Source: Anaerolineae bacterium (lineage in GTDB: Bacteria; Chloroflexota; Anaerolineae; DUEN01). From it: 49,124 nucleotides of DNA. Where the stretch lies: positions 1 through 49,124 of the forward strand of contig JANXBS010000025.1 in the NCBI GenBank assembly GCA_025060615.1. Reading direction: 5' to 3'. The notes under the pieces were generated by a model. That model was not told where the DNA came from. It did no database searches and saw only the letters and a program-made list of their open reading frames with translations. Both the position numbers and the translations under genes were made by a program. Below, in pieces: positions 1-19,359 of this stretch. The first letter of the stretch is position 1, and the number at the start of each line of letters is the position of its first letter.

Positions 1-748
1 GGTTGGCCTCGTCCTCGGCCGCCAAGAGCCGCTGCAGCTGCTCCTGGTGCGCCCGCGCCTGGGGATCTCGCTCCAGGCGCAAGTCCAGCACGGCGGCGGC
101 CACTGCCGCCATCCCCTGGGCGAATTCGGTCTCGCCGGCCTTCTGCGCGGTCTGGGCCATGGCGGCCAGCGCGGCCAGCACCTCGCCATCGAACTCGTCC
201 AGGTGCTCGCGCAGGAAGGCAGCCTGGTCGGGAGCCTGGGATAGCGCCTCCAGCAACGCCATGGCCCGCTGCGCCGCTGCCGGGAGGGCATCAGATGCAG
301 CACGCTGGGCCTCTACCGTATCGGGCACAGCACGCTGTGCCCCTACGTCTTCTACGTCTTCTTGGGCGACCGCCTGCCGAAAGGCGTCCACGGCGGCCAG
401 CAGCATCCCCACGGCCGCGCGCAGAGGCGCGGTGGCCAGGGAGGCCTCGCCCACTGGCAGGATGAGGCGTAAGCGCACCTCGCCGTCCTCGGGGTCTCGA
501 GCGATGGCTACGCCGGTCCAGCGCCAGGCCAGGGCCAGCAACATCTCGGCCCGCTCGCGCGGCTGGGACCCCAGCCCCATGGCCTCCAGCAACACAGCCT
601 GACCCTCCGCGACTGGGCGCAGAACCAGGTCGGCGGAGCCGCCTTCGGTGCGGAAGCTGGTCAGGAGCAGGTCGTGGTCGGGAACGGTTTGATAACGCCA
701 GCCCAGGGCGTCGAACGCTTGAGTGAGATCGGAAAGGGTGACAGACAT
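1..748 (-). CDS. YbjN / type III secretion chaperone-like protein, 3' end outside the window
   Basis: The minus strand is open from an ATG at 748 to the window edge (about 249 codons, no stop). A strong Shine-Dalgarno (CAGGAGGG) lies just before the ATG. Residues 1 to about 125 have the alternating strand-helix pattern of the YbjN / secretion-chaperone fold: an early helix, LLLTSF and DLVLRP strands, a helix around AEMLLALAW, then DGEVRLRLILPVG and a long helix. The rest is Ala/Glu/Gln-rich helix, probably coiled coil. This layout resembles the product of 4824-5339, so YbjN-like proteins sit at both ends of the Ubl cassette. No catalytic motif was seen, and a chaperone or adaptor role is inference. 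The fold call is by eye; the reading frame itself is secure. Confidence 0.6.
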   Translation of the reverse strand, partial: MSVTLSDLTQAFDALGWRYQTVPDHDLLLTSFRTEGGSADLVLRPVAEGQAVLLEAMGLGSQPRERAEMLLALAWRWTGVAIARDPEDGEVRLRLILPVGEASLATAPLRAAVGMLLAAVDAFRQAVAQEDVEDVGAQRAVPDTVEAQRAASDALPAAAQRAMALLEALSQAPDQAAFLREHLDEFDGEVLAALAAMAQTAQKAGETEFAQGMAAVAAAVLDLRLERDPQARAHQEQLQRLLAAEDEAN

Positions 749-788
749 GGGACCCTCCTGAGCAAATCCGACCGGGAAAACGAACTGT

Positions 789-935
789 TCATCGAAAATG
801 CGCCTGAATAAGGATCATCTCGGCCAGAATGATGGACGAAAAAGCGATCTGCGCTCCATCAGAAAAAGTCAGAGCTTCTTCCACGACCTTCGCTTCACCG
901 CCCTGGCGATGGTTACGCTTGCCTCTTGCCGGCAT
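789..935 (-). CDS. 48-aa small protein of the Ubl cassette
   Basis: A 48-codon ORF starts at an ATG directly behind a very strong Shine-Dalgarno (AGGAGGGGG). It lies between the damaged gene ending at 937 and the YbjN-like gene starting at 748, in the same direction. The product begins with a basic stretch (MPARGKRNHRQGG) and ends in a hydrophobic/amphipathic segment (IAFSSIILAEMILIQAHFR). No family is recognised. The ribosome site and operon position support translation; the small size and lack of homology knowledge keep confidence moderate. Confidence 0.45.
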   Translation of the reverse strand: MPARGKRNHRQGGEAKVVEEALTFSDGAQIAFSSIILAEMILIQAHFR

Positions 936-936
936 T

Positions 937-1517
937 CTATCCCCCTCCTGGGCAGCCGTCAAAGATGGGTAGGGCGCCTAGCCGGATCGAGACCTTCGTG
1001 CCGGAGGCAACCGCGCGGGCGAGCGTCTCACCCAGCACTTCGTCCAAAGGGTATTCGTAGGGCCGCGCGTTGAAGCCATCGCTCTGAGCCCGCGCCAGGA
1101 TGAGCTCTAGAGCTACTCCCGCCGCCCACAGATGGCTGTAGTGCTAGCGTCGAAGCAGGGCGAAGGTGGCTCGGTAGAAGCCAGCCCGGACCCGAGCGCG
1201 CTCGGTTCAGCCGCCAGGCCATAAGCCGGGGCCAGTGACTCTCGCAGCCAACGGCGTAGCTCCGCAAAGCTGGGGAACCACTTGTAGCCGGCATCCAGCC
1301 ATTTGCGCACCTCGGCAGACGGGCCGGTGTAAAGGAGGCCGCGATCCACCAGCAACAGGGTGGAGCCGTCCTCCGGGCTGACCTCGAAGCCGATGCGGGC
1401 ATACGGGGGGTGGGTGCCGGGCGGCATCTCCTGATCCTGAAAGACGATGCAGGCCTGTTTGGCACGTTGTTCCAGGTTGGCGAAGGCGGCATCGCTGCCG
1501 CGCAAGAACTGGTGCAT
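937..1517 (-). pseudogene. Cassette gene apparently broken by a frameshift and a stop codon
   Basis: An ORF opens at the ATG at 1517, 17 nt after the stop of the preceding gene, and is protein-like for about 103 residues (motifs ARIGFEVSPEDG, LLLVDRGLLYTGP, WLDAGYKWFPSFAELRRWL). It then continues in poorly structured sequence to a stop at 1113. From about 1206 another minus frame carries good protein sequence (RARVRAGFYRATFALLRR), a TAG at 1144-1146, and then a further convincing stretch (HYSHLWAAGVALELILARAQ) ending with TAG at 937-939, just before the next gene. The simplest reading is one gene of about 190 codons with a +/-1 shift near 1207 and a nonsense codon at 1144. Assembly error, recent decay or two separate ORFs are alternatives. 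The function is unknown. Confidence 0.4.
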
Positions 1518-1534
1518 AAGTCGCTTCTACTTCC

Positions 1535-1842
1535 TTAGCACTCCTTCGCCGAAAGAGGGAGGGAATATTGGCGGCGCATGGGCCGTGTGTCGGCGAAGGC
1601 GCCGATGGCATTGTGCAGATCGCCGGTGCCGCCGCAATCAGGACAGGTTGGAAAGCCGTTCTCCGGGCAATCGGGCTTCTGAGGCAGCCAGATGGCCTCG
1701 TCGAAGAAGATGCGCTCCTGTCGCCACGCGGCGTCCTCGTTACGGAAGCCTTCCTCTAGGTAGGCATGATGACGGCTGTTGAGGACGTACCGACCAAGCT
1801 GTGCGTGTGCAGAGTGAGGGTCACCTCGAAGGTGACCCTCAC
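1535..1842 (-). CDS. Small CxxC zinc-ribbon-like protein, start and frame uncertain
   Basis: The last 85 or so codons before the TAA at 1535 are convincingly coding: RYVLNSRHHAYLEEGF, then a helix-rich part, then a DnaJ-type zinc motif CPDCGGTG. No good start exists in this frame; the only ATG is at 1900, deep inside the E1 gene. The neighbouring frame offers a GTG at 1840-1842 overlapping the E1 stop (GTGA), followed by strand-like VTFEVTLTLHTHSLVG. That frame dies at 1756, so a frameshift near 1790-1800 could join the two. The 25-nt perfect hairpin at 1816-1840 covers the same stretch. The next gene begins 17 nt downstream. Function is unknown, perhaps a zinc-binding accessory of the Ubl cassette. 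Confidence 0.4.
1816..1840 (-). other. Perfect 11-bp hairpin at the E1 gene end
   Basis: Two 11-nt arms (GAGGGTCACCT and AGGTGACCCTC) pair perfectly around a 3-nt loop, and the E1 stop codon lies in its edge. No U-run follows on the minus strand, so it is not a standard terminator. It may be an attenuator, an mRNA processing or stabilising element, or a small mobile palindrome. Confidence 0.6.
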
Positions 1843-2639
1843 CTCGTGGTGTTGGCGCACAGCGGGCAGCTTGGCCTGGCTTGGATGGTGCGGTGTCCAT
1901 CTGGCCCCTGATCCAGAAACACCTCCTTGTAGTTCCATGGCCTAGGCCGCGCCATCAGCAGCGAGTCCACCGCATAGAGCGCAATCCCGGCCACGATCTT
2001 GAGGATCTCGATGGATGCCCCGGCACAGCCATGAACCTGCCGATCCTTCTCGGCGTCCGGGAACAGGCACAGAAAGCACGGCTCGCCCGGCTGCGAGGTC
2101 TGCACGAAGACGTAGCCTCGGGAGGCCTGCTCGTCCACCGCCAGGTAGATGACAGGAATGCGGCTCCGGAGGTAGTGCTCGGCTGCAGCGAGGCGGGTGG
2201 GATGGTTGTCCACCCCCACCACGGCGATATCCCCATTCACATCCACGCCACTGGCCAGGGCGTCCTGAAAGGAGCGGGCATGCCCCTCGATCAGGGTGCG
2301 GCCGGTGGCCTGACGGGAGAGGTTGCGGGCCAAGGCCAGCGCCTTGTTCTGCCCCAGGTCCTCCGGCCCGAAGAGCTGACGGGGGAGGTTGCTCAGCTCC
2401 ACCGTGTCGAAGTCAAGGAGGGTGAGCCGCCCCACCCCCTTGCGGACCAGTCCATGCCCCACCTCGCTCCCCAGCCCCCCGCAGCCGATAAGGACTACAT
2501 GCGTCCGCATCAGCGCATCCTGGTCAGCGCCCGGCACACGCCGGAAGCGGTCGTACAGCGTCTCCCCGCTCCTCTCCCAGGGTTGGGTGAGGTAGCGTGC
2601 CGAAGTGAACGAGACGGTAGAGCCTGCGCGCTCGGTCAA
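1839..2639 (-). CDS. ThiF/HesA-family E1-like activating enzyme of a Ubl cassette
   Basis: This 266-aa adenylyltransferase is predicted to adenylate the C-terminal Gly of the Ubl encoded upstream and pass it on through a Cys. Visible features: the YDRFRRV N-terminal helix typical of E1-like proteins (29-35), the nucleotide loop IGCGGLGS (51-58), LLDFDTVELSNLPRQ (74-88), and two CxxC zinc pairs (C188/C191 and C258/C261). The Cys in VHGCAGA (C205) sits where ThiF/MoeB/UBA enzymes place the thioester Cys. The start is a TTG at 2637-2639 behind an AAAGGGGGTGA ribosome site, giving a 116-nt overlap with the JAB gene in another frame. The E2-like, JAB and Ubl neighbours argue for protein conjugation rather than thiamine or molybdopterin synthesis. 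The fold is sure, the pathway probable. Confidence 0.85.
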   Translation of the reverse strand: MTERAGSTVSFTSARYLTQPWERSGETLYDRFRRVPGADQDALMRTHVVLIGCGGLGSEVGHGLVRKGVGRLTLLDFDTVELSNLPRQLFGPEDLGQNKALALARNLSRQATGRTLIEGHARSFQDALASGVDVNGDIAVVGVDNHPTRLAAAEHYLRSRIPVIYLAVDEQASRGYVFVQTSQPGEPCFLCLFPDAEKDRQVHGCAGASIEILKIVAGIALYAVDSLLMARPRPWNYKEVFLDQGPDGHRTIQARPSCPLCANTTR

Positions 2640-3378
2640 GGCATATCACCCCCTTTCCATGGACTTGAATAGCAAACCGCCGTTGTCGGGCGAAGAAGCG
2701 GATGTAGCCGTCCTCGGAGAAGATGGCCTGGATGGCCGGATAGCCCCCCTCTTCCAGCAGGCGCTGCAGTCGATCGTCAATCCCGGAGGGATGGGGAGGC
2801 CCTGCAAAGCGATGGCTGTGGAAGATGGCGTGCAGCGCCTGGCCGTGCTCATGCAAGGTGACGGCGATGCGGGTGAAATCTTGTAGGTCGAAGGAGGCAT
2901 GGCCGGCCGATTGGGAGGCCAACTTCACCTCGATTAAGTGCTCCAGGGTACGGATGCGGCCGTTGCGGATGCCGGTGACGGCCAGCATCCACTCTGGCTC
3001 CTGGCCGGTGGCAGGCAAGCACTGGGTCAGAAAGCGATAGGCCTCGGCTAGGGTAGCGGAGCTGATCCAATAGAGATCGAAGGCCTGGTTGGCCTTCGGC
3101 TCGGACGTCGAGGCTGGGGGAGGCTCCGGCTCGCCCAGGGCTTGATAGACCTGACGCTGCAGTGCCGGCATTCTCTCCACCGTCTGGCATAACCGCTCCA
3201 GCTCCATCTGGTGGTGGATCACATCCGGGACGCTTCCTGCCTGCAAGGCCCGCTTGAGTAGGGCCAGCCGACGAGCGATCCCCTCCCGTTTGGCGGCCTC
3301 CAGGCGTTGAAGCTCCCATTCGGCCCGTTGTTGCCAGCGCTGGTGTGCCGGCAGGATAAGAAACTGTATCCGCAACAT
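2524..3378 (-). CDS. JAMM/JAB metallo-isopeptidase of the Ubl cassette
   Basis: This 284-aa protein has a helical, probably coiled-coil N-terminus (about 1-90) and a JAB domain (about 98-245). The zinc signature is HSHRFAGPPHPSGID (H187, H189, S198, D201), with eight rather than the canonical seven residues between the second His and the Ser. The upstream Glu is probably E129 in PEWMLAVTG. The expected role is removal or C-terminal maturation of the Ubl, as JAMM enzymes do in other bacterial Ubl cassettes and in the proteasome lid. The ATG at 3378 has an ideal AGGAGGTGA ribosome site and lies 22 nt after the E2-like gene. The last 38 codons overlap the E1 start and are probably not domain core. 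Confidence 0.82.
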   Translation of the reverse strand: MLRIQFLILPAHQRWQQRAEWELQRLEAAKREGIARRLALLKRALQAGSVPDVIHHQMELERLCQTVERMPALQRQVYQALGEPEPPPASTSEPKANQAFDLYWISSATLAEAYRFLTQCLPATGQEPEWMLAVTGIRNGRIRTLEHLIEVKLASQSAGHASFDLQDFTRIAVTLHEHGQALHAIFHSHRFAGPPHPSGIDDRLQRLLEEGGYPAIQAIFSEDGYIRFFARQRRFAIQVHGKGVICLDRARRLYRLVHFGTLPHPTLGEERGDAVRPLPACAGR

Positions 3379-3400
3379 CTTGACTCACCTCCTGTGGGTC

Positions 3401-4111
3401 TTATCGCTGCAACTTCCCACTCATCGCCTCTCGCAGGATCTGCTCTATATTGGTGATGATGTGGTCCAGTGAGGAGGGTGTTGTGTGGAAGTGCACCCGA
3501 TAGCGGTCGCTGAAGCCTTCACGAGTCTTATCCATAAAGCAGGGGTGATGGGGATGGTTCATCGCCTTCAGGTTCCCGATCGGCGGGTCCCAGATGTACA
3601 CGGTATAACCGCCAGGATAAGGGACCTCGACCCTCCCCCGCCAGCTCCAGCCATTGGCTCGGAAGTAGCCATGATAGGCGTTCCCCTCTCGCCGCCAGCC
3701 CTTCTCAGCCCAGAGAGGGGCTGGCCGCGGGCGCACGACCAACGGCTCCCCACGCCGAATCCAAGGATCGGCCTGAGGCATCGGCTCATCCAGCCTGATG
3801 CGGCGCGGCAGCCCCAGGCGCACCGTACTAGCAGAAGAGGACCGGATTCCAAAGCTCATGTTCTCCCTCCTTGGCTCCTTGCGAGCTTGCGTTTCCCCCG
3901 AGGCAGGATGGGATGTCCTTGCGGAGACGTCCCCGGGACCTGGCTTAAGCGCAGCCGGCCGCCCGATCCAACGCACCCGAGCGGACTTGGGAGGGAAAGC
4001 TGGACGAGCCACCCGCTGCCAGAGCCACCGCGCAGCCATCACTGTTAACCAAATGAAGACGGCCAGCATGCCCAAGCTCAAGATCAGGGCAAGCAGCTCT
4101 TCTCTGGTCAT
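3401..4111 (-). CDS. E2-like ubiquitin-conjugating protein with an upstream membrane segment
   Basis: One frame of 236 codons. From the ATG at 4111 (site GGGAGGG) it encodes a hydrophobic segment (LLALILSLGMLAVFIWLTVMA, trimmed here to its core LALILSLGMLAVFIWLTV) and a basic, Pro-rich linker. From the internal ATG at 3859 (site AAGGAGGGAG) it encodes a 152-aa E2-like domain: strand YHGYFRANG, strand GRVEVPYP, GYTVYIWDPP, then NHPHHPCF, where C107 (numbered from 3859) is the likely catalytic Cys, and a C-terminal helix. The His/Pro-rich context before the Cys resembles other bacterial E2-like families. Either E2 is made alone from 3859 and a membrane protein precedes it, or a membrane-anchored E2 is produced; no stop codon separates them. 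The E2 assignment rests on pattern and context. Confidence 0.65.
   Translation of the reverse strand: MTREELLALILSLGMLAVFIWLTVMAARWLWQRVARPAFPPKSARVRWIGRPAALKPGPGDVSARTSHPASGETQARKEPRRENMSFGIRSSSASTVRLGLPRRIRLDEPMPQADPWIRRGEPLVVRPRPAPLWAEKGWRREGNAYHGYFRANGWSWRGRVEVPYPGGYTVYIWDPPIGNLKAMNHPHHPCFMDKTREGFSDRYRVHFHTTPSSLDHIITNIEQILREAMSGKLQR
3860..3872 (-). promoter_or_regulatory. Internal ribosome binding site deciding the soluble E2-like start
   Basis: AAGGAGGGAG precedes the in-frame ATG at 3857-3859 by 3 nt, well inside the open frame that starts at 4111. It would give a 152-aa E2-like protein without the membrane segment. Confidence 0.6.
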
Positions 4112-4141
4112 AACCCGTCCCTCCCTTGGGCTGAGGGGTGA

Positions 4142-4168
4142 GGAAGCAGGGGGGGCCCCCCTGCTTCC
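4142..4168 (-). other. GC-rich hairpin between the Ubl and E2-like genes
   Basis: The arms GGAAGCAGGGGGG and CCCCCCTGCTTCC pair over 13 bp with almost no loop, in the gap after the Ubl stop (4179) and before the ATG at 4111. No U-run follows. It is probably an intercistronic mRNA structure that sets stoichiometry, not a full terminator. Confidence 0.6.
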
Positions 4169-4178
4169 CCTGCGCTGC

Positions 4179-4742
4179 TCAGCCGACATCCATATTCATA
4201 ATCGTCAGGTAGACCTTCTCTCCGTCCTGCACCTGTTGGTAGAGATCCTCCTCACTGCCCAAGGAGCGGTAGCCCTCACCCCGCTTAATCTGAATCCCCC
4301 ACTCTTGCGGATTGCGGCCGGTGGCAAGGACCAGGTCGGCAACTGTAGTACCCGGCTGGATAGCCGCGTCGCGGGCTTCGGCCTCCTCTCCCGCAGCCGG
4401 AACGATGACCAAGATTTGCTTTTCCATGACACACCTCCAGGATAGCCCCTGTGGGGCCGGATAGAGGTGCCACGCGCCGGGGGAAGGCGCATGGCACCTC
4501 GGCGGATAGGCCCGTGATCTTGGCTTGAAGTCGGTCTGGCAGGCGTCCCAGGGCCCCCAGGCATCCCAGTCCGCCTCGTTGGCGACGTGATCCTTAGTGA
4601 TGATGCGGTTTCCGCTCACCAACCAGGCGTCGTGATGCCAGCCGAAGGCGCGGCTGGGATGTAGCCGCTCATCGCCCACGATGACGCTGGCCAGCTCCCC
4701 CGGTTTGAGGCCCAAGTCCCGGGGATCAAAGGATGCCGACAT
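4179..4742 (-). CDS. Ubiquitin-like beta-grasp protein preceded in frame by an unknown domain
   Basis: One frame of 187 codons with two parts. The ATG at 4742 (ideal AAAGGAGGTGA site) opens about 105 residues of unknown type (FDPRDLGLKPGELASVIVGD, HHDAWLVSGNRIITKDHV). An internal ATG at 4427, with site GGAGGTG, opens an 82-aa Ubl: strand EKQILVIVP, second strand with TTVADLVLATG helix, WGIQIKRGEGY, and a final strand EKVYLTIMNMDVG ending in a single C-terminal Gly suited to E1 adenylation. A strong hairpin (4464-4500) lies just upstream of the internal start, which argues that the Ubl is a separate 82-aa product and that the first gene has lost its stop or truly fuses. The order Ubl, E2-like, JAB, E1 supports the call. 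Confidence 0.68.
   Translation of the reverse strand: MSASFDPRDLGLKPGELASVIVGDERLHPSRAFGWHHDAWLVSGNRIITKDHVANEADWDAWGPWDACQTDFKPRSRAYPPRCHAPSPGAWHLYPAPQGLSWRCVMEKQILVIVPAAGEEAEARDAAIQPGTTVADLVLATGRNPQEWGIQIKRGEGYRSLGSEEDLYQQVQDGEKVYLTIMNMDVG
4428..4439 (-). promoter_or_regulatory. Internal ribosome binding site for the 82-aa Ubl
   Basis: CTGGAGGTG lies 4-5 nt before the in-frame ATG at 4425-4427. It is as strong as the sites of the other cassette genes and decides in favour of independent translation of the Ubl. Confidence 0.65.
4464..4500 (-). other. 15-bp hairpin upstream of the Ubl start
   Basis: The arms (4464-4478 and 4486-4500) are complementary over 15 positions with one G-T wobble and a 7-nt loop. 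It sits about 25 nt before the Ubl ribosome site, inside the nominally open frame, which suggests that this stretch is intercistronic rather than coding. Confidence 0.6.
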
Positions 4743-4823
4743 CTCGTTCACCTCCTTTCCAAGCCTGATTGCCTGCCCCCTTACTCTCTTATAGCAATAG
4801 GCGAGCTCGCGTGACGGCCGGCG

Positions 4824-5339
4824 TTAATCCGTGGCCGGCCGGCTGTTCCACAGCGAAGGCCCCTCCTCCTGGGCCGTCTCCAAGCCTTGGAGGGCCTCGG
4901 CTATCTGCTTCAGCCCCTCAAACGCCGCAATCGCCTTGGCCAGCTCCAAAACCCCCTCCTCCAAAGCCTGGAAGGCGCACTCCAACAACGAGTCCGGGAG
5001 CTTATCCCCCGGCGTTAGGGTGACCCGGATGCGCGCCTCCCCTTGGATGGGCTCCAGCTCCAGACAGGCCAGCGATAGGCGGTAATTCAGCATGCTGGCG
5101 GCCAGCAGGGTGGCCTGACGGAGCTCTTGTGGGATATTCCCCAGTGGCACTAGGAACATCACCCCCCACTCGGCATAGGTCGCCACCTGCACTAACATCG
5201 GCTTGCTATCGACGGGCCATTGCACTAGCAGCCTAGGTGGGCTTCCTATCTCCAGCCAGGTCCAGCCCCGCCCTTGGCAGAAGGCCTTGACCTGTTGAAG
5301 CCATGCCATCTCTTTGGTCTCATCGAGTGAGGTCTTCAT
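4824..5339 (-). CDS. YbjN / secretion-chaperone-like protein of the Ubl cassette
   Basis: A 171-aa protein from the ATG at 5339 (site AAAGGAGC). The open frame reaches 5453, but the upstream part has no ribosome site and looks non-coding. The pattern matches the YbjN-like fold: N-terminal helix (WLQQVKAFCQ), paired strands (TWLEIG, RLLVQWP, MLVQVATYAEWGVMFLVPLG), helix (LRQATLLAASMLNYRLSLAC), a strand pair around GEARIRVTLTPGD, and a long C-terminal helix. It is similar in layout to the product ending at 748. It precedes the Ubl gene by about 80 nt. It may be an adaptor or chaperone of the conjugation system; this is inference from position and fold only. Confidence 0.6.
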   Translation of the reverse strand: MKTSLDETKEMAWLQQVKAFCQGRGWTWLEIGSPPRLLVQWPVDSKPMLVQVATYAEWGVMFLVPLGNIPQELRQATLLAASMLNYRLSLACLELEPIQGEARIRVTLTPGDKLPDSLLECAFQALEEGVLELAKAIAAFEGLKQIAEALQGLETAQEEGPSLWNSRPATD

Positions 5340-5449
5340 GTTTTTTGCTCCTTTGATGCTCGTGGGCCAAAACCGCTTTCTAGTTATACTTATAGGGACG
5401 GAAAGGATACCTCGTGACGGGCCGGTGCAGGAGCCCTCTTGGGTCCCCT

Positions 5450-5800
5450 TCAACTCGGCACGGGGACCAAGGCCTCCAGCACGGCTACTGGCATGCGGTG
5501 GATGAAGACCTCATGCTGCTCCAATAGGGCGGCCAGTTCGCTCGCCAGCCGGCGAAAGCGCCACGCTATCTCCTGGGTGTCTGGCGCCACGGCCCAGATG
5601 GGCACAACGCGGTCAAAGCGCATCTGGCCATCAGGGGCGATCCAGAGGCCGTCGCTGGCCGGCAGCACTGTACAGCCGCCAGCGAGGCGGGCGATCTCGT
5701 CCCTGGCCCAGCGTAGGCGGTCGGCGGCGATGGGCTCGCCGTGGTTGTCATTCAACGGCAGATACACGGTATAGAGCGCCAGGTTGGCCAGGGTTGCCAT
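5450..5800 (-). CDS. 116-aa uncharacterised protein of the Ubl cassette
   Basis: Starts at the ATG at 5800 with a GGGAGG ribosome site. The product begins with a strand (LALYTVYLPLND), then a helix and GGCTVLPASDGLWIAPDG, a conserved-looking Gly-Gly-x-Thr...Gly-x-Trp pattern seen in small orphan bacterial proteins, followed by VVPIWAV and an amphipathic helix (RFRRLASELAALLEQHEVF). No catalytic residues can be named. It follows a small membrane protein gene by 18 nt and precedes a YbjN-like gene by 110 nt, so it is likely part of the same transcript. The function is unknown. Confidence 0.6.
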   Translation of the reverse strand: MATLANLALYTVYLPLNDNHGEPIAADRLRWARDEIARLAGGCTVLPASDGLWIAPDGQMRFDRVVPIWAVAPDTQEIAWRFRRLASELAALLEQHEVFIHRMPVAVLEALVPVPS

Positions 5801-5818
5801 GAGGGCCTCCCTTCGCTG

Positions 5819-6010
5819 TTATTGCAGTGCCAAGATGAGCACCGCCAGGCCGGCCCCGGCCGCCAGGAACGCCATCCCCTTCCCAAAGTATGCCCCTTCC
5901 CGGTCGCCAGAGCGCTCAGCTTGAGCGCCGGCCAGCGCCATCAGCCCGGCGATCCCCCACAGAAATCCAGCGCCTAAGACACCCATTATCTGCGGCCAAG
6001 TAAAGGTCAT
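5819..6010 (-). CDS. 63-aa small membrane protein
   Basis: The ATG at 6010 follows a GAGGGGGGTGA ribosome site. The product has two predicted transmembrane helices (about 8-26, IMGVLGAGFLWGIAGLMAL, and 44-62, GMAFLAAGAGLAVLILAL) joined by a short charged loop (QAERSGDREGAYFGKG). It is the first recognisable gene of the minus-strand cassette and ends 18 nt before the 116-aa gene. The E2-like frame also carries a membrane segment, so part of the system may sit at the membrane. No family was recognised. Confidence 0.55.
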   Translation of the reverse strand: MTFTWPQIMGVLGAGFLWGIAGLMALAGAQAERSGDREGAYFGKGMAFLAAGAGLAVLILALQ

Positions 6011-6688: not shown

Positions 6689-7507
6689 CTAGCTTGTGAG
6701 CGCTTTTTCCTTTGTCTCGCGGGGACGAGCCATTTCCTCCAGCCGCTGCCATACCGCTTCAGCCGCCTTCACCAGCTCCGGCGCCCGATCGAACACGGCC
6801 TGGCCGCTTAACTCCGCCTCGATCACCTGGGGATCAGCCGGCAGATAGCCCAACACGACCAAGCCCTCCACCTGCGCTTGCGCTTCGATGAACGCGTGGT
6901 CGCGTTCGTCGCGCACCTTGTTGGCGACCAGGTACATGCGGTTCAGCCCGATGTCGCCGGCCAGGCTGCGGATCTGGCGCGCCGTGTCCAAACTGCGCCG
7001 GCCCGGCTCGACGACGACGATCAAGGCGTCCACCGCCTGGGCGGTCGCCCGGCCCAGGTGCTCGACGCCGGCCTCCATGTCCATGATCACGATCTCATCG
7101 CGCCCCAAGAGCAGGTGGGTCACTAACGCTCGCAGCAGCGCGTGCTCTGGACACAGGCACCCACTCCCTCCCCGCTTAACGGTGCCTAGGCGCAGCAGGC
7201 GGATGCCCCGATGCTCTGCCGAGAAGCGATCAGGGATGTCGTCCACGCGCGGGTTCAAGCGAAACCAACCGCCCACAGTGCCCGGTTTGGCGCCGGTGCG
7301 CTCATAGATAAGCTCTTCCATTTCAGCGATAGGCACGATGGCGGCAGCTAGCTCTGGTGGAAACCCCAGAGACAAAGCCAGGTTGGCGGCCGGGTCGGCG
7401 TCAATGGCCAGCACGCGACGGCCGTCACGGGCGTACAGGTAGGCGAGCAAGCTGGCCAACGTCGTCTTGCCCACCCCACCCTTGCCCGTAATAGCTAACT
7501 TGGTCAT
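6689..7507 (-). CDS. cooC: CooC/AcsF-type nickel-insertion ATPase (first of two)
   Basis: A 272-aa MinD/SIMIBI-class ATPase. Features: deviant Walker A GKGGVGKTT (8-16), DADPAANLALSLG (37-49), the CooC-specific CxC (C117, C119 in GSGCLCPEHALLR) that binds metal at the dimer interface, Walker B IVIMDMEAGVEHLG and a VANKVRD motif. In Moorella and Rhodospirillum such ATPases (AcsF, CooC) mature the Ni sites of acetyl-CoA synthase or CO dehydrogenase. The start at 7507 has a GCGGAGG site. It is the last gene of the long minus-strand cluster, 24 nt after hdrCB. The window has a second copy at 21308, so one may serve CooS and the other AcsB; which does which cannot be told here. Confidence 0.88.
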   Translation of the reverse strand: MTKLAITGKGGVGKTTLASLLAYLYARDGRRVLAIDADPAANLALSLGFPPELAAAIVPIAEMEELIYERTGAKPGTVGGWFRLNPRVDDIPDRFSAEHRGIRLLRLGTVKRGGSGCLCPEHALLRALVTHLLLGRDEIVIMDMEAGVEHLGRATAQAVDALIVVVEPGRRSLDTARQIRSLAGDIGLNRMYLVANKVRDERDHAFIEAQAQVEGLVVLGYLPADPQVIEAELSGQAVFDRAPELVKAAEAVWQRLEEMARPRETKEKALTS

Positions 7508-7531
7508 TCACGTTCCTCCGCTTCACCTGAC

Positions 7532-8926
7532 CTATACAAGGCCTCGCGCCTGCAAAGCTGGCCTGGGGTCCACTAGGTTCTTGTGCAAGGCCGCGGCCTG
7601 GGCTCCCAACCCGAACGCCAATACCATCAATTGGGTCGCATACAGGACAGGGATTTGAAAATCGAGGCCGATCTGGCTTTGGCGAGCATCCAGATTGACG
7701 TGGCACAGCGGACAGACGGTCGCCACGACATCTGCTCCGCAATCGTGGGCGTTTTGCAAGATCTTGCGCGTCATCTCCAGGGCCAACGGCGTCTGGGTGA
7801 GGCTGAGCGCGCCACCGCAGCAATCGGTCTTGCATGACCAGTGAACCGGCTCGGCTCCTAACGCCCGCATCAGATAGTCCATCTTCATCGGATACTCAGG
7901 ATGCTCAGCCTGAGTAATCCGAGGAGGCCGGGTGATTAGACAGCCGTAGTAGCAGGCGACTTTGAGCCCCGTCAGCGGCTTTTTCACATTGGCCTTGATC
8001 TTGTCCAGACCCGCCCGGTCTACCAACGTGTCAAGCAGGTGCTGTACCGTGACCGTTCCCCGATAGGCGTAGCCGATCCGCTCCTCTACCATATGGGCGA
8101 TCTCGCCGTCGTGCATCACCGTATAGGCGGCGGCCCTCATGCGGGCGAAACACGCGCTGCACGGCGCCGTCACGGTGTCCAGCCCCATCTGCTCGACCGT
8201 CGCCAAGGTACGCATGGGCAGCACAGTGGCCAGGACGTGGTCCGTTGAGTGAGCGGGGCTGGAGCCACAGCAGGTCCAGCCGGGCGGCTCGATCAACGCC
8301 AGGCCCAGCGCCCGCGCGGCTGTGCGGACAGTGTGATCGTACTCGGCGGCGGAGGAGTGTAACGAGCAACCGGGAAAGTAGGCTACCTGGTTCGCGGCCG
8401 GCTTCACGGGCTTCACCCGGCGCGGCGGGCGCACGATTGTGGGGACGAGGCGGAGCTTGCCCCGTCGCATCATCTCCAGGCCCATATCTACGTCCTTCAG
8501 CGGCCGCCGCGTTGCCAGGTTCATACCGGCCATCAGCCCCACTTCATACAGCCGCCCCAACAAACCGATGTCGTACAGGAAAAGCTTGCTGAATGTATCC
8601 ACCTCAGGGATAGCCGGCGTCAGGCCACGCCGCTTAGCCTCGATGCGCAGCACGTCCATGATGCCGGCGATGTCCAGGCCCTGTGGACAGCGGGTGGAAC
8701 AGGTCTGGCAGGAAGCGCATAACCAGATAGCTTTGCTCTCCAGCACCCGTTCATCGCCCAATTGCAGGCTACGCATGACCTGGTTCGGCATCAGATCAAA
8801 ATGCTCTGCCAGTGAACAACCGCTGGTGCATTTAAGACATTGATAGCACAGAAACACGTTCTGGCCTAGCTCCCGCTGCACCACCCGTGCCAGTGGCTCG
8901 GCGGTGATGGCTTCACGTCTTGCCAT
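7532..8926 (-). CDS. Heterodisulfide reductase-like HdrC-HdrB fusion
   Basis: A 464-aa fusion. The N-terminus is HdrC-like with two [4Fe-4S] motifs (C27/C30/C33/C37 and C70/C73/C76/C80). The C-terminal half is HdrB-like with two CCG domains: the first in CSLHSS...TCCGSS...CSACF, the second in YYGCLI...DCCGGA...CPLC. CCG domains hold the non-cubane [4Fe-4S] clusters of HdrB. With HdrA and MvhD it should carry electrons within a MetFV-HdrABC-MvhD-type methylenetetrahydrofolate reductase complex. The ATG at 8926 (GAGGTGCG site) is preferred over the longer frame from 8944. It follows metF by about 20 nt. In Moorella HdrB and HdrC are separate; here they are one chain. Confidence 0.87.
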   Translation of the reverse strand: MARREAITAEPLARVVQRELGQNVFLCYQCLKCTSGCSLAEHFDLMPNQVMRSLQLGDERVLESKAIWLCASCQTCSTRCPQGLDIAGIMDVLRIEAKRRGLTPAIPEVDTFSKLFLYDIGLLGRLYEVGLMAGMNLATRRPLKDVDMGLEMMRRGKLRLVPTIVRPPRRVKPVKPAANQVAYFPGCSLHSSAAEYDHTVRTAARALGLALIEPPGWTCCGSSPAHSTDHVLATVLPMRTLATVEQMGLDTVTAPCSACFARMRAAAYTVMHDGEIAHMVEERIGYAYRGTVTVQHLLDTLVDRAGLDKIKANVKKPLTGLKVACYYGCLITRPPRITQAEHPEYPMKMDYLMRALGAEPVHWSCKTDCCGGALSLTQTPLALEMTRKILQNAHDCGADVVATVCPLCHVNLDARQSQIGLDFQIPVLYATQLMVLAFGLGAQAAALHKNLVDPRPALQARGLV

Positions 8927-8947
8927 TTCGCACCTCTTCAACAAGTC

Positions 8948-9940
8948 TCAGCCCCCATCCACGATGGGCCTGGGCAACAGACCTGCGCCCTCGACGATGG
9001 GGCGGACGGCCTCTTCCCACTCGATGGCCATGATGTGCACTCCCCTCACGCCTTCGATCTCCCGTAGCTGTTGGATCTGCTCGATACAGATTTTGATGCC
9101 CTCAGCACGCCAGGCAGCCGCACGCGCCTTCTTGTCCTCTGGGTCGATGCCCTTTACCGCCGCTTCCATCCGCTCGATGTACTCATCGGCCACGATCATG
9201 CCGGGCACCTGATCGCGCATGTAACGGGCCATGCCGGCGCTCTTGAGAGGCCCCACTCCTGCCAGGATGGCCACTTTCTCGTGCAAACCCATGTCCACCA
9301 CCCGCTTCATGAACTCCTTGAAACGGGGGATGTCGTAAATCAATTGGGTCTGGACGAAGTCCGCGCCAGCGGCCACCTTCTTAGCCAAACGGAGGGGACG
9401 GAAATCGAAGGGATCGGCGAAGGGATTGGCCGCGGCCCCGATGAAGAAACGCGGCCCGCCTCCTTTGATCTCCTCGCCGCATTGAAACTTAGCCTCATCG
9501 CGCATGTCTTTGACTATACGAATCAATTGCAGCGAGTCAATATCATACACGTTTTTAGCTGTGGGATGATTGCCAAACGACTGATGATCGCCAGACAGGC
9601 AGAGCACGTTCCGGATGCCTAGAGCGGCCGCGCCCAAGAGATCACTCTGGATGGCCAGCCGATTCCGATCGCGACAGGTCATCTGCATCACCGGCTCCAG
9701 CCCCTCGCGAGCCAAGATGACCGACGCGGCGATGCTGCTCATGCGAACGATGGCAGTCTGGTTATCGGTGATGTTAACCGCGTCCGCGCACCCCCTAAGC
9801 AATTCTGCCTTTTTGCGGATGACCTCAGCGTCATGGCTCTTGGGAGGCCCTAATTCGGCAGTGACGGCAAAATACCCCGCCGCTAGAACCCGTTCCAAGT
9901 TGCTACCTGCCTTATAGCCGTTTCGCCTCTCTTCAGTCAT
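8948..9940 (-). CDS. metF: 5,10-Methylenetetrahydrofolate reductase
   Basis: A 330-aa FAD-dependent TIM barrel that reduces methylene-THF to methyl-THF in the methyl branch of the Wood-Ljungdahl pathway. Visible motifs: the catalytic Glu in FAVTAELGPP, the folate/FAD region NITDNQTAIVRMSS, QMTCRDRNR, LCLSGDHQS and FVQTQLIYD. All are intact, unlike the divergent copy at 16139. It lies between metV and hdrCB, as in gene sets that encode the NAD-independent MetFV-Hdr-MvhD complex. A 143-nt gap without a recognised gene separates it from metV upstream. The start at 9940 has a GGAG site. Confidence 0.93.
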   Translation of the reverse strand: MTEERRNGYKAGSNLERVLAAGYFAVTAELGPPKSHDAEVIRKKAELLRGCADAVNITDNQTAIVRMSSIAASVILAREGLEPVMQMTCRDRNRLAIQSDLLGAAALGIRNVLCLSGDHQSFGNHPTAKNVYDIDSLQLIRIVKDMRDEAKFQCGEEIKGGGPRFFIGAAANPFADPFDFRPLRLAKKVAAGADFVQTQLIYDIPRFKEFMKRVVDMGLHEKVAILAGVGPLKSAGMARYMRDQVPGMIVADEYIERMEAAVKGIDPEDKKARAAAWRAEGIKICIEQIQQLREIEGVRGVHIMAIEWEEAVRPIVEGAGLLPRPIVDGG

Positions 9941-10083
9941 ACTCGCCTTCTCCGACTCACCTGACGATCAGCCCCAACTACCCTTACGATGTTATTCAGA
10001 CCCTCTCCCCCGCATCATCCCCTTGGGTGTCTGCCCGTCCTTGACCCTCGATTTCGTGGGAAAGAGAGCGAAGGGGGAGATCG

Positions 10084-10773
10084 TCAATGATCCCGATACC
10101 CCTCTGGCAAACGCAAATCCTCACGGATGATACGGCGCGGGCCGCCGTCGCGGCTGGTGGACCAGTTCTTGGGCGGCTGAATCTCTAGCAGCCGGTCGAG
10201 CATCCCCAGCGCGGTCATCCGCTCCCAGATCAGATGCCAGGCGCAAGGGATATCTGAGCTGACCTCACACTTGCCGTTTTGCGAGCCACCGCACGGCCCA
10301 TTGAGCAGTTGCTTGGAGCAGCGGGCGATGGGGCAGATCCCGCCGGTGCGATCTAGGATACAGTCACCGCACGCCTGACAGCGCTCCTCCCATACCCCCT
10401 GCTCGACAGGCAACCCCATGAACTTGGTATTGAGCGCCGGCAGCACCCGGATATTCGGGAACCGCTCGGCCAGGGTCTGCACGCCAACACCGCACCCCAG
10501 CGAGAGGATGGCATCATAGCTATCCAGCCGGCTTCGCAGCGGGTCTATGTATTCCCACTCGCATTGCCGCTGAACGGTCACCTCGTCAATGTCCACGCCG
10601 TGGCCGTCTAGCCGGGTAGCCATGCGCAGCGCCGAGGCCAGGATGCCTACCTCTTTTTCTCCGCCAGCGAAGCAGACGGTGACGCACGTACCGCACCCAA
10701 CGGCCAGCACCCGCTGATAGCCCTCCACCATCGCTTTAATCTCGGCCAACGGCTTCTGTTCCGCAACGATCAT
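10084..10773 (-). CDS. metV: MetV, zinc/Fe-S subunit of methylenetetrahydrofolate reductase
   Basis: A 229-aa protein of the MTHFR C-terminal (MetV) family. The N-terminal half is a Rossmann-like domain with VLAVGCGTCVTVC and LSLGCGVGVQ; the C-terminal half carries Cys motifs RCQACGDC, GGICPIARC and NGPCGGSQNGKC, expected to hold Fe-S or zinc. In Moorella and Acetobacterium, MetV partners MetF and links it to electron donors. Its ATG overlaps the mvhD stop (ATGA), so the two are translationally coupled, which supports the complex. Two further genes here carry the MetV Cys-rich part fused to MetF-like barrels. Confidence 0.9.
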   Translation of the reverse strand: MIVAEQKPLAEIKAMVEGYQRVLAVGCGTCVTVCFAGGEKEVGILASALRMATRLDGHGVDIDEVTVQRQCEWEYIDPLRSRLDSYDAILSLGCGVGVQTLAERFPNIRVLPALNTKFMGLPVEQGVWEERCQACGDCILDRTGGICPIARCSKQLLNGPCGGSQNGKCEVSSDIPCAWHLIWERMTALGMLDRLLEIQPPKNWSTSRDGGPRRIIREDLRLPEGYRDH

Positions 10774-11222
10774 TCCTTCCCTCCTCGACCTAACGGGTTC
10801 GGCCCCAGTTCCCGAACCCGCTCGACCATCTCACGGGCGACCTCGGCGAAGCGCGCGCCCATCGCCGACGACAGATGGACCATGCGGGCGCGCTCGTCAC
10901 CCAGCCCGATCTGATCGAGCAAACGATGAACGTACTCTATCCGTTGTCGAGCGTACAGATTACCTTCCAGGTAATGGCATTCCCCGGGCAGTCAGCCGGC
11001 CACTATCACGCCGTCTGCGCCATCCTCGAAGGCCCGCAATACGTGCAGCACATCGAGCCGCCCCGTACATGGCAACTCGAACACTTTGACGGCCGACGGG
11101 TACTCCAACCGCAGTCCGCCAGCCAAATCTGCCGCTGCGTAAGCGCAATGACGGCAGCAAAAGGCCAAGATCTGAGGTTGCCAATCAGCCCTTGCCTGGG
11201 AAAAGCCGTTGCCACCTGTCAT
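10770..11222 (-). CDS. mvhD: MvhD-like hydrogenase delta subunit, predicted selenoprotein (in-frame TGA = Sec77)
   Basis: The frame starts with ATGA overlap at the hdrA stop and reads MvhD to an in-frame TGA at 10992-10994. The same frame continues with typical MvhD sequence (GECHYLEGNLYARQRIEY, VHLSSAMGARFAEV) to a TGA at 10770 that overlaps the metV start. The full product is 150 aa. Cluster ligands seen: C22, C23, C26, C52, Sec77, C82. The family normally has Cys in the GADGVIVAGC position, and the archaeal VhuD selenoprotein is known, so Cys-to-Sec exchange fits. A 6-bp SECIS-like hairpin follows the TGA. MvhD passes electrons between a donor and HdrA. A nonsense mutation is the alternative, but the intact, coupled 3' half speaks against it. 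Confidence 0.85.
10959..10994 (-). promoter_or_regulatory. Putative bacterial SECIS element with its UGA codon
   Basis: The UGA (10992-10994) is followed 16 nt later by ATTACC-TGGAA-GGTAAT, a perfect 6-bp stem with a G-containing 5-nt loop. The loop starts 22 nt after the UGA, within the spacing of SelB-bound bacterial SECIS hairpins such as fdhF. It lies inside the mvhD reading frame, as bacterial SECIS elements do. Confidence 0.65.
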
Positions 11223-14200
11223 ACTACTTGCTCCTCCACCAGCTTACCAAGCCACTCTTCGGGCTTTTCCGCCGTGAAAAGGGCGTCTACTTTGGCCAGT
11301 ACCTGAGCGTCGGTATAGTGCATCAGTTGGATTGCTCGCGCTGGGCAGGCTGCGGCACACAATCCGCAGCCCCGGCAGAGGGCCGTCTCGATCTGCGCTG
11401 CGCCCAGGAGGTTGCCCACACCCCTCAGATTGGACACGATGCGCGGCGCGTGGTATGGGCAGGTGCGCACGCAGGTCAGGCAGCCCGCACAGCGCCACGA
11501 GTCCACTACGGCCACGCGCCCGCCCACGGTGATGGTATCCCGGGCCAGGATCGTGGCCGCCCGCGCCGCTGCTGCCTTTGCCTGGACGAGGCTCTCATCC
11601 AGTAGCTTGGGGTAGTGGGCCAGTCCGGCCATAAAGAAACCATCCGAGGAGAAATCCACTGGCCGCAGCTTGACATGTGCCTCTAAGAAGAAGCCATCTA
11701 GGTCCAACGGCACTTTGAGCCGGCTGCTGAGCTCGTGAACTCCCTCAGGTGGGATTACAGGGGTGCTCAGCACCAGCAGATCGGGCTGAAGCTCCATCTC
11801 GAGTCCCAGCGTCTCCTCCCACACTCGAACGCTCAGCTCCCCATCCCCATATTTCACCTGCGGCTTGCGATCGAAATCATAGCGGATAAAGCGGACGCCG
11901 GCCCGCCGCGCTTCAGTGTATAGCCGCTCTTTGAAACCGTAGGTGCGGATGTCACGGTAGAGCACCGCGACCTCGGCAGTCGGACGGAGACGCTTAAAGA
12001 GCAGGGCGTTCTTAAGCGCCACCGTGCAACAGATGCGGCCGCAATATCTCTCTGCCGGGCCGACGCACAGGATCATGACCACCGAGTCGGGCAATGAGTG
12101 AACCGGGGATGAGGCGATAAGTTCTGAGGAGGCTTCTTTCCTCGTCGCCTTATCGCCTTGTTGCCTTACCGCCTCCTCCGCCAGCAGCGCTTCAAACTCC
12201 TGTTGGGTGAGGATGCGCGGATCACTGCCATATCCGTACTCACTCCCCCGGTACTCCACGCCGCCCGTGGCCACGATCGTCACGCCATGGCGGACCTCCA
12301 CCGGAGACGGGTGATCCCCATCAGGCAAAATGGGATCAGATGTCCGGGCCAAGACAGAGGTGAAATCGCCCACGACACCGCTGATAGCCATCACCTCGGT
12401 CCCTAGATGCACCGTGATCCGCGGGTGGGTCTCGACGCGATGGATCAAATCGGCCAGAAAAGCTTGAGCGGAACCGCTCGAACTGATATTCGCTTCTGAC
12501 CTCCCGTCTCCGCCGTCGCGCCCCAGCCCCAGATCGTCTAGCGTGTAGTACAGCCGGCGCAGATTGCCGCCAAGCATCTGGCTGCGCTCTACCAGGTGCA
12601 CCGGGAACCCCTGATCTGCCAGCGAAAGGGCGGCCGTCATCCCCGCTGCGCCGCCGCCAATCACCAGCGCCGCCTTCTCCACGGGCATCGCCGTGGTGTA
12701 CAGGGGTTGCAGCTGGGCCGCGCGGGCGACGGCCATACGGACCAGGTCCTTTGCCTTTTCCGTCGCGGCGTCCCAATCGCGGTGGACCCAGGAGCACTGG
12801 TTGCGGATGTTGGCCATCTCGAACAGGTAGGGGTTAAGCCCTGCCGCCCGCAGACAACTCTGGAAGAGCGCCTCGTGGGTCAGCGGCGTGCAAGAGGCCA
12901 CCACCACCCGGTTAGCTCCCAGCTCGCGGATCTTCTCGGTGATGTGAGCGATGCTGTCCTGCGAGCACGTGTACAAATTATGCTCGGCATGGACCACGTA
13001 GGGCAACGACCGTGCATATTCGGTCACGGCCGGCACGTCGAGGAAGCCGGCGATATTCGAGCCACAATGGCAGACGAAGACCGCGATGCGGGGCTCCTCG
13101 CCGGAGACATCGCGCTCCGGTGGATATTCAGGTTGGCGCGCCAAGCTGCCGCGCGCGGCGGCTAACAGCTCGCCGACGGCAGCAGCGGCACCGCTGGCCT
13201 CCACCACCGACTCCGGGATGTCCTTCGGCTCGCGGAAAGGTCCAACGGCGAAGATGCCCGGCCGGCTCGTCTGTAATGGCTCGAACGGCCGCGTCCGGCA
13301 AAAGCCGTGCTCATCGAGCTCAATCCCCAACCTCGACCCTAGCTCACGCACGCTCTCCGGGATCTCCATGCCGACGGAGAGCACTACTAGGTCAAATTCC
13401 TCCTCAATGAGGGACGAGGGACGAGCAGCAAAGGGGAAGCTGGTCAGTAGCTGCCCTCCATTTCGTTGCTTTACCGACTCGTCCACGTACCTCAGGATCA
13501 AATTCTTCGTAACCGGGTCTTCTTTGACGGACGAGATCCGACAGCGCGTGTAACGGATGCCATACCTCTCCTTTGCCCGGCGGTAGTACTCCTCATAGCC
13601 CTTGCCGAAGGCGCGCATGTCCATCAGGAAGATATGCACCTCGGTATCGGGTTCATGTTCGATGGCCATCATGGCCTGCTTGGTGGCGTACATGCAACAC
13701 ACGGCCGAACAGTAGTCATGCGCCTGGTCACGGGAACCTACGCACTGCAGAAAGGCGATCTTCTTCGGGGTTTTGCCATCCGAAGGCCGGCGCACGTGGC
13801 CCATCGTCGGGCCAGAGGCGCTCAACAGCCGCTCGAACTGAAGCGAGGTGACGACGTTCGGGTAGCGGCCCCAGCCGTATTCCTCGGCCTGCTCTGCCCA
13901 GTAGGCCCGGTAGCCGGGGGCCAGGATGACCGCTCCTACCTTCAGCTCGCGCACCTGCTCGACCATGTCGTGGTCTATCGCCTTTACGCCGCACTGATAC
14001 CAGCAGCTCAGGCACTCGGAGCAGATGCCGCAGGCCAGGCAACGCGCGGCCTCCGCCTGAGCCTGCTCGGGGGTGTATCCCTTCTCCACCTCGGCGAACC
14101 CCCTGACCCGATCTTCCACTGGCAACATCGGCATCGGCACCCGCGGGGTGATCCGGATCTCGCCGCGTTGGATCCGCTCTTGCAGTTCCGCCTGGGTTAG

Positions 14201-15994: not shown

Positions 15995-16138
15995 CTCCCA
16001 TCCCCCAAGCTGTCATAGAACTGATCTCACCAGCTACCGTAGTGTTTGCAATTTCCTTTCCGCGGCTGATTCGGCCCCAACCTGCGGATATGTTCCCGCC
16101 TCTATCCCTGAGGAGGGATTCCCTCGCCCGTAGGTTTA

Positions 16139-17668
16139 TTACGATATGCCTTCGAACGGCAACACGTTGATACTGTCTAGATGGCCTCGATGGAACAACC
16201 CGCAACCGTTATTTGAGAAAGCTTTGGTGCTACCGATGTGAAGGTCTAAGCCCGACTCTTGCACCAAACGCGGGATGGCCTCTTCCTGGTAAGGGGCCAG
16301 GAGATGTAGACCTTGAACCTTGCCGATGCGCCTTAGCCTGGAGATCAAATCCAGCGCGATCTGAATGCCCTCCTCCCGAGGGTCCAGGGCATCCTCCATA
16401 TGGGCCAGCATTATGTCTGGGATCGCGCAGCCAGGCAGCTCCTTCGAGAGGAAGCGAGCCTGTTGAGCATCTCGCAACACCATAACGGTGACGATCAGGT
16501 AAGTTTTGCCTAACAGATTACGCCGATCGAGGGCATCTAGCCACGCCGTGAAGCGGGACAGATCGAACACGGGAAGGGTCAACAGGAACTGGGCGCCGGC
16601 GTTGATCTTCTTTTCCACGGCGAGAGCCTCATAGCGCGGTGCCAGCGCATAAGGTGAGACGACCGCGCCCAAGAAGTATTTGGGGCGGCATCCGACGGGT
16701 TCACCATCTATGTTCACCCCCTCGTCGCGCAGCCGCCGCAGCATCCATAACGCCTGCACCGGGTCGAGGTCATTAAGGCCAGGGCGCGGAGTCGGTCCGG
16801 AGCCTGCCCACTCACTCTTATTGAATAGGCACAAGATGTTGCGCACGCCCACAGTGGCCGCCCCTATCGCCTCCGCCTCGATCGCATAGCGGTCGCGATG
16901 ATAGACTTGAAGGTGCAAGAGTGGTTCCAAACCGAGTTGAAGGCTGGAGATCGCGCAGGCCAACGCGCTCATACACGGCACCTCAGGCGGCCGGCTCAGG
17001 AAACCAACAGCATGAACATTCCCCCTGAGGCACTTAGCCACCTGAGCGATGCGGTCCAGCCTGGCTTCCGGCGGCGCGGCCGCTCCGGCTATCACGACGA
17101 ACCGCCGACTCCGCAGCGCGTCCTCCAGGGGCGAGGCAGGCTCCGTGTACGCAGGCGGATGGTATCGGCCATCGCCGCGCCACCACGACGGCTGCCTAAG
17201 CTCATAGCGAAAGGCTTCCCATTCGGCATGGAAGCGCGCTCGATCAGCGATCAGATCTCGCAGCCGAGGCCCTTGCGCACGGCTGCGCCAAATCCGATAC
17301 GCAGTCAGGATCGTCTCACAGCCCACACGCCGGCTATCCAGCGGAGCAACGACCTCCAACAATCTGTCCAAATCACCTCGCTGCTCAGCGCGCCGATAAA
17401 TGCGAGCCCATGCACAACCTTCCGCCGGACCAGAGAAGCAATGTTCAGGTGGCGAGTCAAGACAGGGGCCGTTGCGCAGGCCGTCAGGACAGCTCATCGG
17501 GCAGATGAAGCCAGTCTCCAGCAGGAGGCAATGTCCACACATCCGGCATCCGAAGAGCGCGCCCTTAACCCAACGTTCGACGCCGGCGACCCAACGAGCC
17601 AGCGGCGACTGAGGCACCAGCGGGCGAAAGACCGCACGCGAATGCCGAGACGCAATCCCCAGCACCAT
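16139..17668 (-). CDS. MetV-MetF fusion paralog with degenerate MetF active site
   Basis: 509 aa from the ATG at 17668 (AAGGAGG site). The N-terminus has the MetV Cys set (GCRMCGHC, FICPMSCP, NGPC), the C-terminus a MetF-like barrel. Compared with the neighbour at 17776, key barrel motifs are changed: the catalytic Glu region AEIAPP reads AGAAAPP, TDNPSATPRMSS reads LSRPPEVPCMSA, QMTARDRTR reads LQVYHRDRY, and LSGDHP reads LFNKSE. It has therefore probably lost flavin chemistry and may be a structural or electron-transfer subunit, or a decaying duplicate; the frame is intact and the Cys motifs kept. It sits between the intact fusion and hdrA. Confidence 0.8.
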   Translation of the reverse strand: MVLGIASRHSRAVFRPLVPQSPLARWVAGVERWVKGALFGCRMCGHCLLLETGFICPMSCPDGLRNGPCLDSPPEHCFSGPAEGCAWARIYRRAEQRGDLDRLLEVVAPLDSRRVGCETILTAYRIWRSRAQGPRLRDLIADRARFHAEWEAFRYELRQPSWWRGDGRYHPPAYTEPASPLEDALRSRRFVVIAGAAAPPEARLDRIAQVAKCLRGNVHAVGFLSRPPEVPCMSALACAISSLQLGLEPLLHLQVYHRDRYAIEAEAIGAATVGVRNILCLFNKSEWAGSGPTPRPGLNDLDPVQALWMLRRLRDEGVNIDGEPVGCRPKYFLGAVVSPYALAPRYEALAVEKKINAGAQFLLTLPVFDLSRFTAWLDALDRRNLLGKTYLIVTVMVLRDAQQARFLSKELPGCAIPDIMLAHMEDALDPREEGIQIALDLISRLRRIGKVQGLHLLAPYQEEAIPRLVQESGLDLHIGSTKAFSNNGCGLFHRGHLDSINVLPFEGIS

Positions 17669-17775
17669 CTCCTCCTCCTTCACGGCTTCTTAATCTAGAG
17701 AGGATGCCTCAAACCTCTCTCACCGTTCGAGACATCCCTTGAAGAGGCATTCTAAGGCCAGCCCTTACTCGGTCA

Positions 17776-19272: not shown

Positions 19273-19359
19273 TACCGGTCCTCCCAACACAGGCTAACAC
19301 ATAAGCGAGAACTCGATCATCACCAACTGCTCCTAATCTAAAGCTCTCGGCGGTTTCTG

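Follow-up and report, generated by a model that had tools for sequence, protein, structure and literature searches.

Gene classes of ubiquitin-like protein (Ubl) conjugation occur together in several described systems. Type 6d of Iyer et al. 2006 consists of Ubl, JAB, E1, E2, and an alpha-helical protein, and the JAB-N region in row 6d is an alpha+beta domain with a conserved Arg and Trp (PMC1779556). In the Bil system (BilABCD), BilA carries a pair of Ubl domains, whereas BilD combines an inactive with an active adenylation domain (PMC11354881). Bub operons frequently have CapW, CapH+CapP, or CapK+CapS regulators at their flanks (PMC13373217).

The window analyzed here is a stretch of 49,124 nucleotides from an Anaerolineae bacterium, comprising the whole of contig C25. 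A run of minus-strand genes starts at the contig end and includes the following four-gene cassette:

4179..4427, minus strand: Ubl, 82 aa, predicted beta-grasp, with a C terminus of ...NMDVG at the stop codon and no tail to trim
3401..4111, minus strand: E2-like protein anchored by a transmembrane (TM) helix, 236 aa, a single open frame with the TM helix at ~6-24, a linker, and a Cys domain
2524..3378, minus strand: JAB/JAMM metallopeptidase, 284 aa, with a variable N-terminal region of ~95 aa
1839..2639, minus strand: E1-like adenylyltransferase of the ThiF/MoeB type, 266 aa, TTG start

A JAB search of 396 genomes of the same class identified a counterpart cassette at locus L020 of a relative from a different family (G483). 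Three general features of bacterial Ubl operons are present: a beta-grasp Ubl with Gly, an adjacent E1 without rhodanese, and an adjacent JAB with intact ligands. The nearest described arrangement is type 6d, which also has four separate genes of matching classes, a single Ubl with a terminal Gly, an E2 that lacks the classical His but has a conserved His after the Cys, and a JAB with an extra N-terminal region. In contrast to 6d, no alpha-helical partner lies between or directly around the four L020 genes, the E2-like protein is membrane-anchored (no anchor is mentioned for the 6d E2 in PMC1779556), no Pfam model recognizes the Ubl or the E2-like protein, and the JAB N terminus is poorly conserved (29%). 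Bil likewise has Ubl, E2, JAB, and E1 in one operon; here, however, the Ubl is a single 82-aa domain and the 266-aa E1 has one ThiF stretch, and the spacing does not fit the C-E-H-H motif of BilB. The likeness to Bub is, by description, one of bacterial Ubl conjugation gene classes, but none of the CapW, CapH+CapP, or CapK+CapS regulators was noted beside the cassette. Type II CBASS Cap2, a fused E2-E1, and 6A-MBL share the E1 domain superfamily (PADLOC E1-E2 matches), whereas the window cassette has no E2-E1 fusion, no nucleotidyltransferase (CD-NTase), and no metallo-beta-lactamase. The Caldiarchaeum Ub-E1-E2-RING-Rpn11 operon shares enzyme classes, and its ubiquitin is the closest Foldseek match to our Ubl model, but no RING gene is present here. 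Compared with Bub by description, the cassette reads to us as a rare variant, new among bacterial Ubl-E2-JAB-E1 operons, that would conjugate at the membrane.

Extent and distribution of the cassette

In L020, the genes lie on one strand in the same order as in the window:

11281-11033: Ubl
10967-10380: E2-like protein
10370-9462: JAB
9583-8789: E1

Window and L020 proteins are 51% identical for the Ubl, 41% for the E2-like protein, 55-56% for the JAB, and 71% for the E1. Conservation of gene order had been proposed as a check in a first-pass annotation made from the window alone; its retention in this one other genome confirms, by sequence comparison, that the four-gene set is real and above chance. 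Divergence is biased to third positions in all four genes, and selection is shown, in this single comparison of two cassettes, to act on all four frames. No third cassette was found in searches covering 400 genomes of the phylum (E1 profile), a second draw of 396 within the class, and 20 genomes belonging to the family of G483, by our own estimate ~600-700 distinct genomes in total, with overlap between draws. The cassette is rare and sporadically distributed. Queries with the E2, JAB, or E1 returned no cassette from GTDB contigs, IMG/VR, or plasmids, where the contig scans were made with short exact peptides and are weak negatives. The next-best E1 matches in the phylum were MoeB/ThiF-type genes, with no recognizable JAB, E2, or Ubl neighbor beside those inspected. 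Two E2 matches from the phylum scan (L007 and L008, E ~4e-4) were rejected as chance, as they overlie other ORFs and have no cassette neighbors.

Other genes near the window cassette have no counterpart near that of L020:

6010-5819: 63-aa membrane protein
5800-5450: 116-aa protein
5339-4824: YbjN-like protein
1900-1535: CxxC protein
1517-1113: 134-aa protein
748-2: YbjN protein K
48-aa peptide

The gene upstream in L020 encodes a membrane protein that matches bacterial-PH below threshold. Because the neighbors listed above lack counterparts there, the conserved unit, as delimited by this comparison, is Ubl, E2-like, JAB, and E1 only. The first-pass annotation had counted the YbjN-like, 116-aa, membrane, CxxC, and 48-aa products as cassette partners and had suggested a new subtype on that basis, an argument that fails because these genes are missing from the relative. 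A new subtype is nevertheless reasonable on other grounds: the Ubl and E2-like proteins match no model in Pfam, NCBIfam, or PADLOC, and would be families new to the profile libraries searched, and the E2-like protein is membrane-anchored. Two YbjN-like proteins had also been called, of which K passes the YbjN cut-off but the 5339-4824 product gives a sub-threshold match (E 0.13). Neither is tied to the cassette, since the latter is absent from 40 of 40 relatives and the genome contains another stretch matching K at 71% DNA identity (G000:C3:121992-122426); K belongs to a paralogous YbjN family of the genome.

Elsewhere in this genome, contig C13 (~45028-45483; L062 5029-5484) bears a decayed second copy of the upstream part of the cassette, in which fragments of the Ubl and of the 63-aa and 116-aa genes remain with 82-87% DNA identity and broken frames. 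The position of the 63-aa and 116-aa genes beside a Ubl fragment indicates that they were duplicated together, which is not proof that they work together.

The Ubl, JAB, and E1 proteins

The Ubl is confidently predicted to adopt a ubiquitin-type beta-grasp fold. Its AF2 model (pLDDT 87.7), built from an alignment of two sequences, shows the strand and helix order of a beta-grasp and aligns with ubiquitin-type domains at Z 10-11, with VIA giving Z 10.9 to the ubiquitin variant 6cpm_E. The top Foldseek match is Caldiarchaeum ubiquitin 6fno_D (E 1e-4), and many ubiquitins score alike. With a C-terminal Gly common to the window and L020, the beta-grasp Ubl ending in Gly that had been called from the sequence is borne out by structure prediction. 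Profiles of the Ubl, JAB, and E2 searched against PDB sequences gave nothing useful.

Directly upstream of the Ubl is a further open frame:

4428..4742, minus strand: ORF D, preceded by a strong Shine-Dalgarno, running in frame into the Ubl with no stop between

A 187-aa D-Ubl form is possible because ORF D reads into the Ubl without a stop. ORF D has no counterpart in L020; codon-position GC is atypical in its 3′ half, and a 15-bp hairpin lies within it at 4464-4500. Two other hairpins accompany the cassette:

4142..4168, minus strand: perfect 13-bp hairpin between the Ubl and E2-like genes (repeat search, RNA fold)
1814..1842, minus strand: perfect 13-bp hairpin at the E1 stop codon, without a T-run

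At the spot corresponding to the first, L020 has a perfect 11-bp hairpin (10995-11019) of unrelated sequence. Folding of the spacer between Ubl and E2-like genes is unexceptional for its composition in the window (z −0.99) and exceptional in L020 (z −2.94), and our guess would be that a hairpin after the Ubl gene allows Ubl to be made in excess of the enzymes. The second hairpin is a possible end of the core unit.

The JAB gives a Prok-JAB match below the curated Pfam cut-off in both genomes (E 0.005 in the window and 0.001 in L020). Residues E129, H187-S-H189, S198, and D201 are intact and invariant in L020, with one residue more in the motif spacing than in the H-x-H-x7-S-x2-D consensus, and the earlier assignment to the JAMM peptidases holds. 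Across its N-terminal region, 29% identical to that of L020, R14 and W15 are invariant in the two sequences compared. The E1 belongs to the ThiF family (Pfam E 5e-33), as had been recognized along with its CxxC pairs, and has one ThiF stretch. Both E1s keep the nucleotide-binding GCGGLG, D76/D78, N84/R87, K99, and D144; the zinc ligands are the two CxxC pairs C188/C191/C258/C261, also kept in both, and the conserved Cys205 is the candidate catalytic Cys.

The JAB and E1 genes overlap out of frame:

2524..2639, minus strand: JAB/E1 overlap, 116 nt (122 nt in L020)

Synonymous change is suppressed here, with fourfold sites of the E1 changed at 3/16 positions within the overlap vs. 54/88 elsewhere (Fisher p 0.002) and those of the JAB at 3/14 vs. 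30/57 (p 0.04). Both frames of the overlap are therefore likely to be constrained and the JAB/E1 pair likely to be real, and the two genes are probably translationally coupled via the overlap.

The membrane-anchored Cys-domain protein and a proposed conjugation cycle

The segment 4111-3860 is stop-free, in frame with the Cys domain, and encodes a hydrophobic helix at residues 6-24. The E2-like gene called in the first-pass annotation accordingly extends over 4111-3401 and not 3859-3401. In L020, the E2-like protein is a single ORF containing the TM helix and Cys domain, starting MDWEQFVAWFCGATVLIGLVCLAMSGYEERR, with the helix in the same place (hydropathy peak 2.32, compared with 2.61 in the window). 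In both proteins, charged, mainly basic residues stand just after the helix, and the Cys domain is predicted from these, by the positive-inside rule, to be cytoplasmic. An internal ATG at 3859 is associated with a Shine-Dalgarno-like stretch, from which a soluble form might conceivably also be made.

The Cys numbered 191 in the full protein and 107 in the domain lies in the motif N-x-x-H-x-P-C, of which N, H, P, and Cys are invariant in both proteins; domain residues H123, H125, and H133, a later H-x-H and a further His, are invariant as well, among two sequences only. The canonical HPN is absent, N-x-x-H-x-P-C being all that is held in common. By eye, W-x-PP-[IL], then H..C, and finally the 'P-x-SLDH' helix at the C terminus come in the same order as the elements of an E2. 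Gene context, the invariant motif, the later His, and this element order make the protein a likely, rather than a demonstrated, E2.

Structure prediction neither establishes nor refutes the E2 fold. The domain model is of low confidence (pLDDT 63), with elements in the order beta-beta-beta, loop, beta-beta, helix. VIA with this weak model placed FANCL residues 1-101 first, at a Z of 6.5 that is not significant (90 residues, 4.0 Å), with GyrA and type III chaperone entries level with it at Z 5.9. The FANCL segment is its E2-like-fold domain, and no E2 chain besides FANCL appears in the VIA listing, which is confined to Foldseek's ranking. Foldseek itself returned type III chaperones (E 0.05-0.2) and no E2. 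The domain profile did not match four bacterial E2 domains, and the viral structure library yielded nothing convincing. The element order of the model and the chaperone matches (VIA Z 5.9; Foldseek E 0.05-0.2) leave some room for a tentative alternative, in which the Cys domain takes some other alpha/beta fold, such as a type III chaperone-like one, and the cassette is a Ubl-E1-JAB set with a membrane target or receptor. These chaperone matches are likewise not significant, however, and the simplest reading of an invariant Cys/His center encoded beside E1, Ubl, and JAB is an E2.

With the Cys-domain protein taken as an E2, we lean, by a modest degree, toward a self-contained Ubl conjugation cycle at the inner membrane face. 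The E1 would adenylate the C-terminal Gly82 of the Ubl using ATP and take the Ubl as a thioester on Cys205. The next carrier of the thioester would be Cys191 in the E2-like protein, held in the membrane by its one N-terminal helix. The E2 would then transfer the Ubl to membrane proteins, or to proteins recruited there, with no separate E3, and the JAMM peptidase would remove it. Removal is the more likely need for a JAB than maturation, because the Ubl already ends in Gly. If true, a membrane-fixed transfer enzyme acting with no separate E3 would be a simple model of tagging aimed by location alone.

Alternative roles and genomic setting

A sulfur-carrier role is unlikely. The E1 would then serve the Ubl as ThiF/MoeB serve ThiS/MoaD, forming its adenylate and thiocarboxylate, the JAB would act on Ubl adducts as in CysO/QbsE-type sets, and the membrane protein would be a sulfur acceptor or tether. 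The E1 is indeed minimal and MoeB/ThiF-like, with zinc Cys residues and a Cys205 at the MoeB-like place, and sulfur-linked Ubl-JAB-E1 sets are common (rows 4b-4e, PMC1779556). However, neither cassette adjoins a rhodanese, a cysteine synthase, or another sulfur gene, and a Cys-bearing membrane partner is kept in both. In a phylogenetic tree, the window and L020 E1s also form a clade apart from the MoeB/ThiF rows, on a long stem whose placement beyond that is unsure.

An antiphage role like that of Bil or Bub, raised in the first-pass annotation, is doubtful; it concerns purpose and overlaps with the conjugation cycle that we prefer. Gene classes as in Bil and Bub and a very sporadic distribution are consistent with it, but no regulator or defense gene was seen beside the cassette, the flanks tested gave no PADLOC match of note, and within the cassette defense models matched nothing beyond the generic E1 (PADLOC E1-E2), so that the link finds no support. 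The window flanks encode folate/C1 metabolism: adjoining the cassette, 6689-19290 (minus strand) is a C1/Wood-Ljungdahl-type run with a CooC-like ATPase, an HdrB-like CCG protein, three MTHFR genes with DUF5981 partners, and a 1591-aa fused flavin/FeS oxidoreductase. Besides a decarboxylase, the L020 flanks encode AAA and STAND-type ATPases, among others.

In eukaryotes, Atg3 attaches Atg8 to membrane lipid, and Atg3 and Atg10 have an HPC motif. By analogy, the membrane-anchored E2-like protein could attach the Ubl to lipid and the JAMM peptidase remove it, a bacterial Ubl-lipid conjugation that is very improbable, the pointers to it being the membrane anchor and the H-x-P-C motif only, with the HPC triplet absent in L020 (HRPC).

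Two other loci encode ThiF or E1 proteins in different settings. Directly upstream of the decayed copy on C13, L062 5619-6926 (minus strand) encodes a 435-aa ThiF protein with an unrecognized N-terminal domain of ~140 aa, perhaps a separate E1 fusion system. In another genome of the phylum (G061), L051 779-3411 has an unfused E2-like gene (GSLCLFHPHD) beside an E1 and a third gene, forming a different small Ubl-type cluster.
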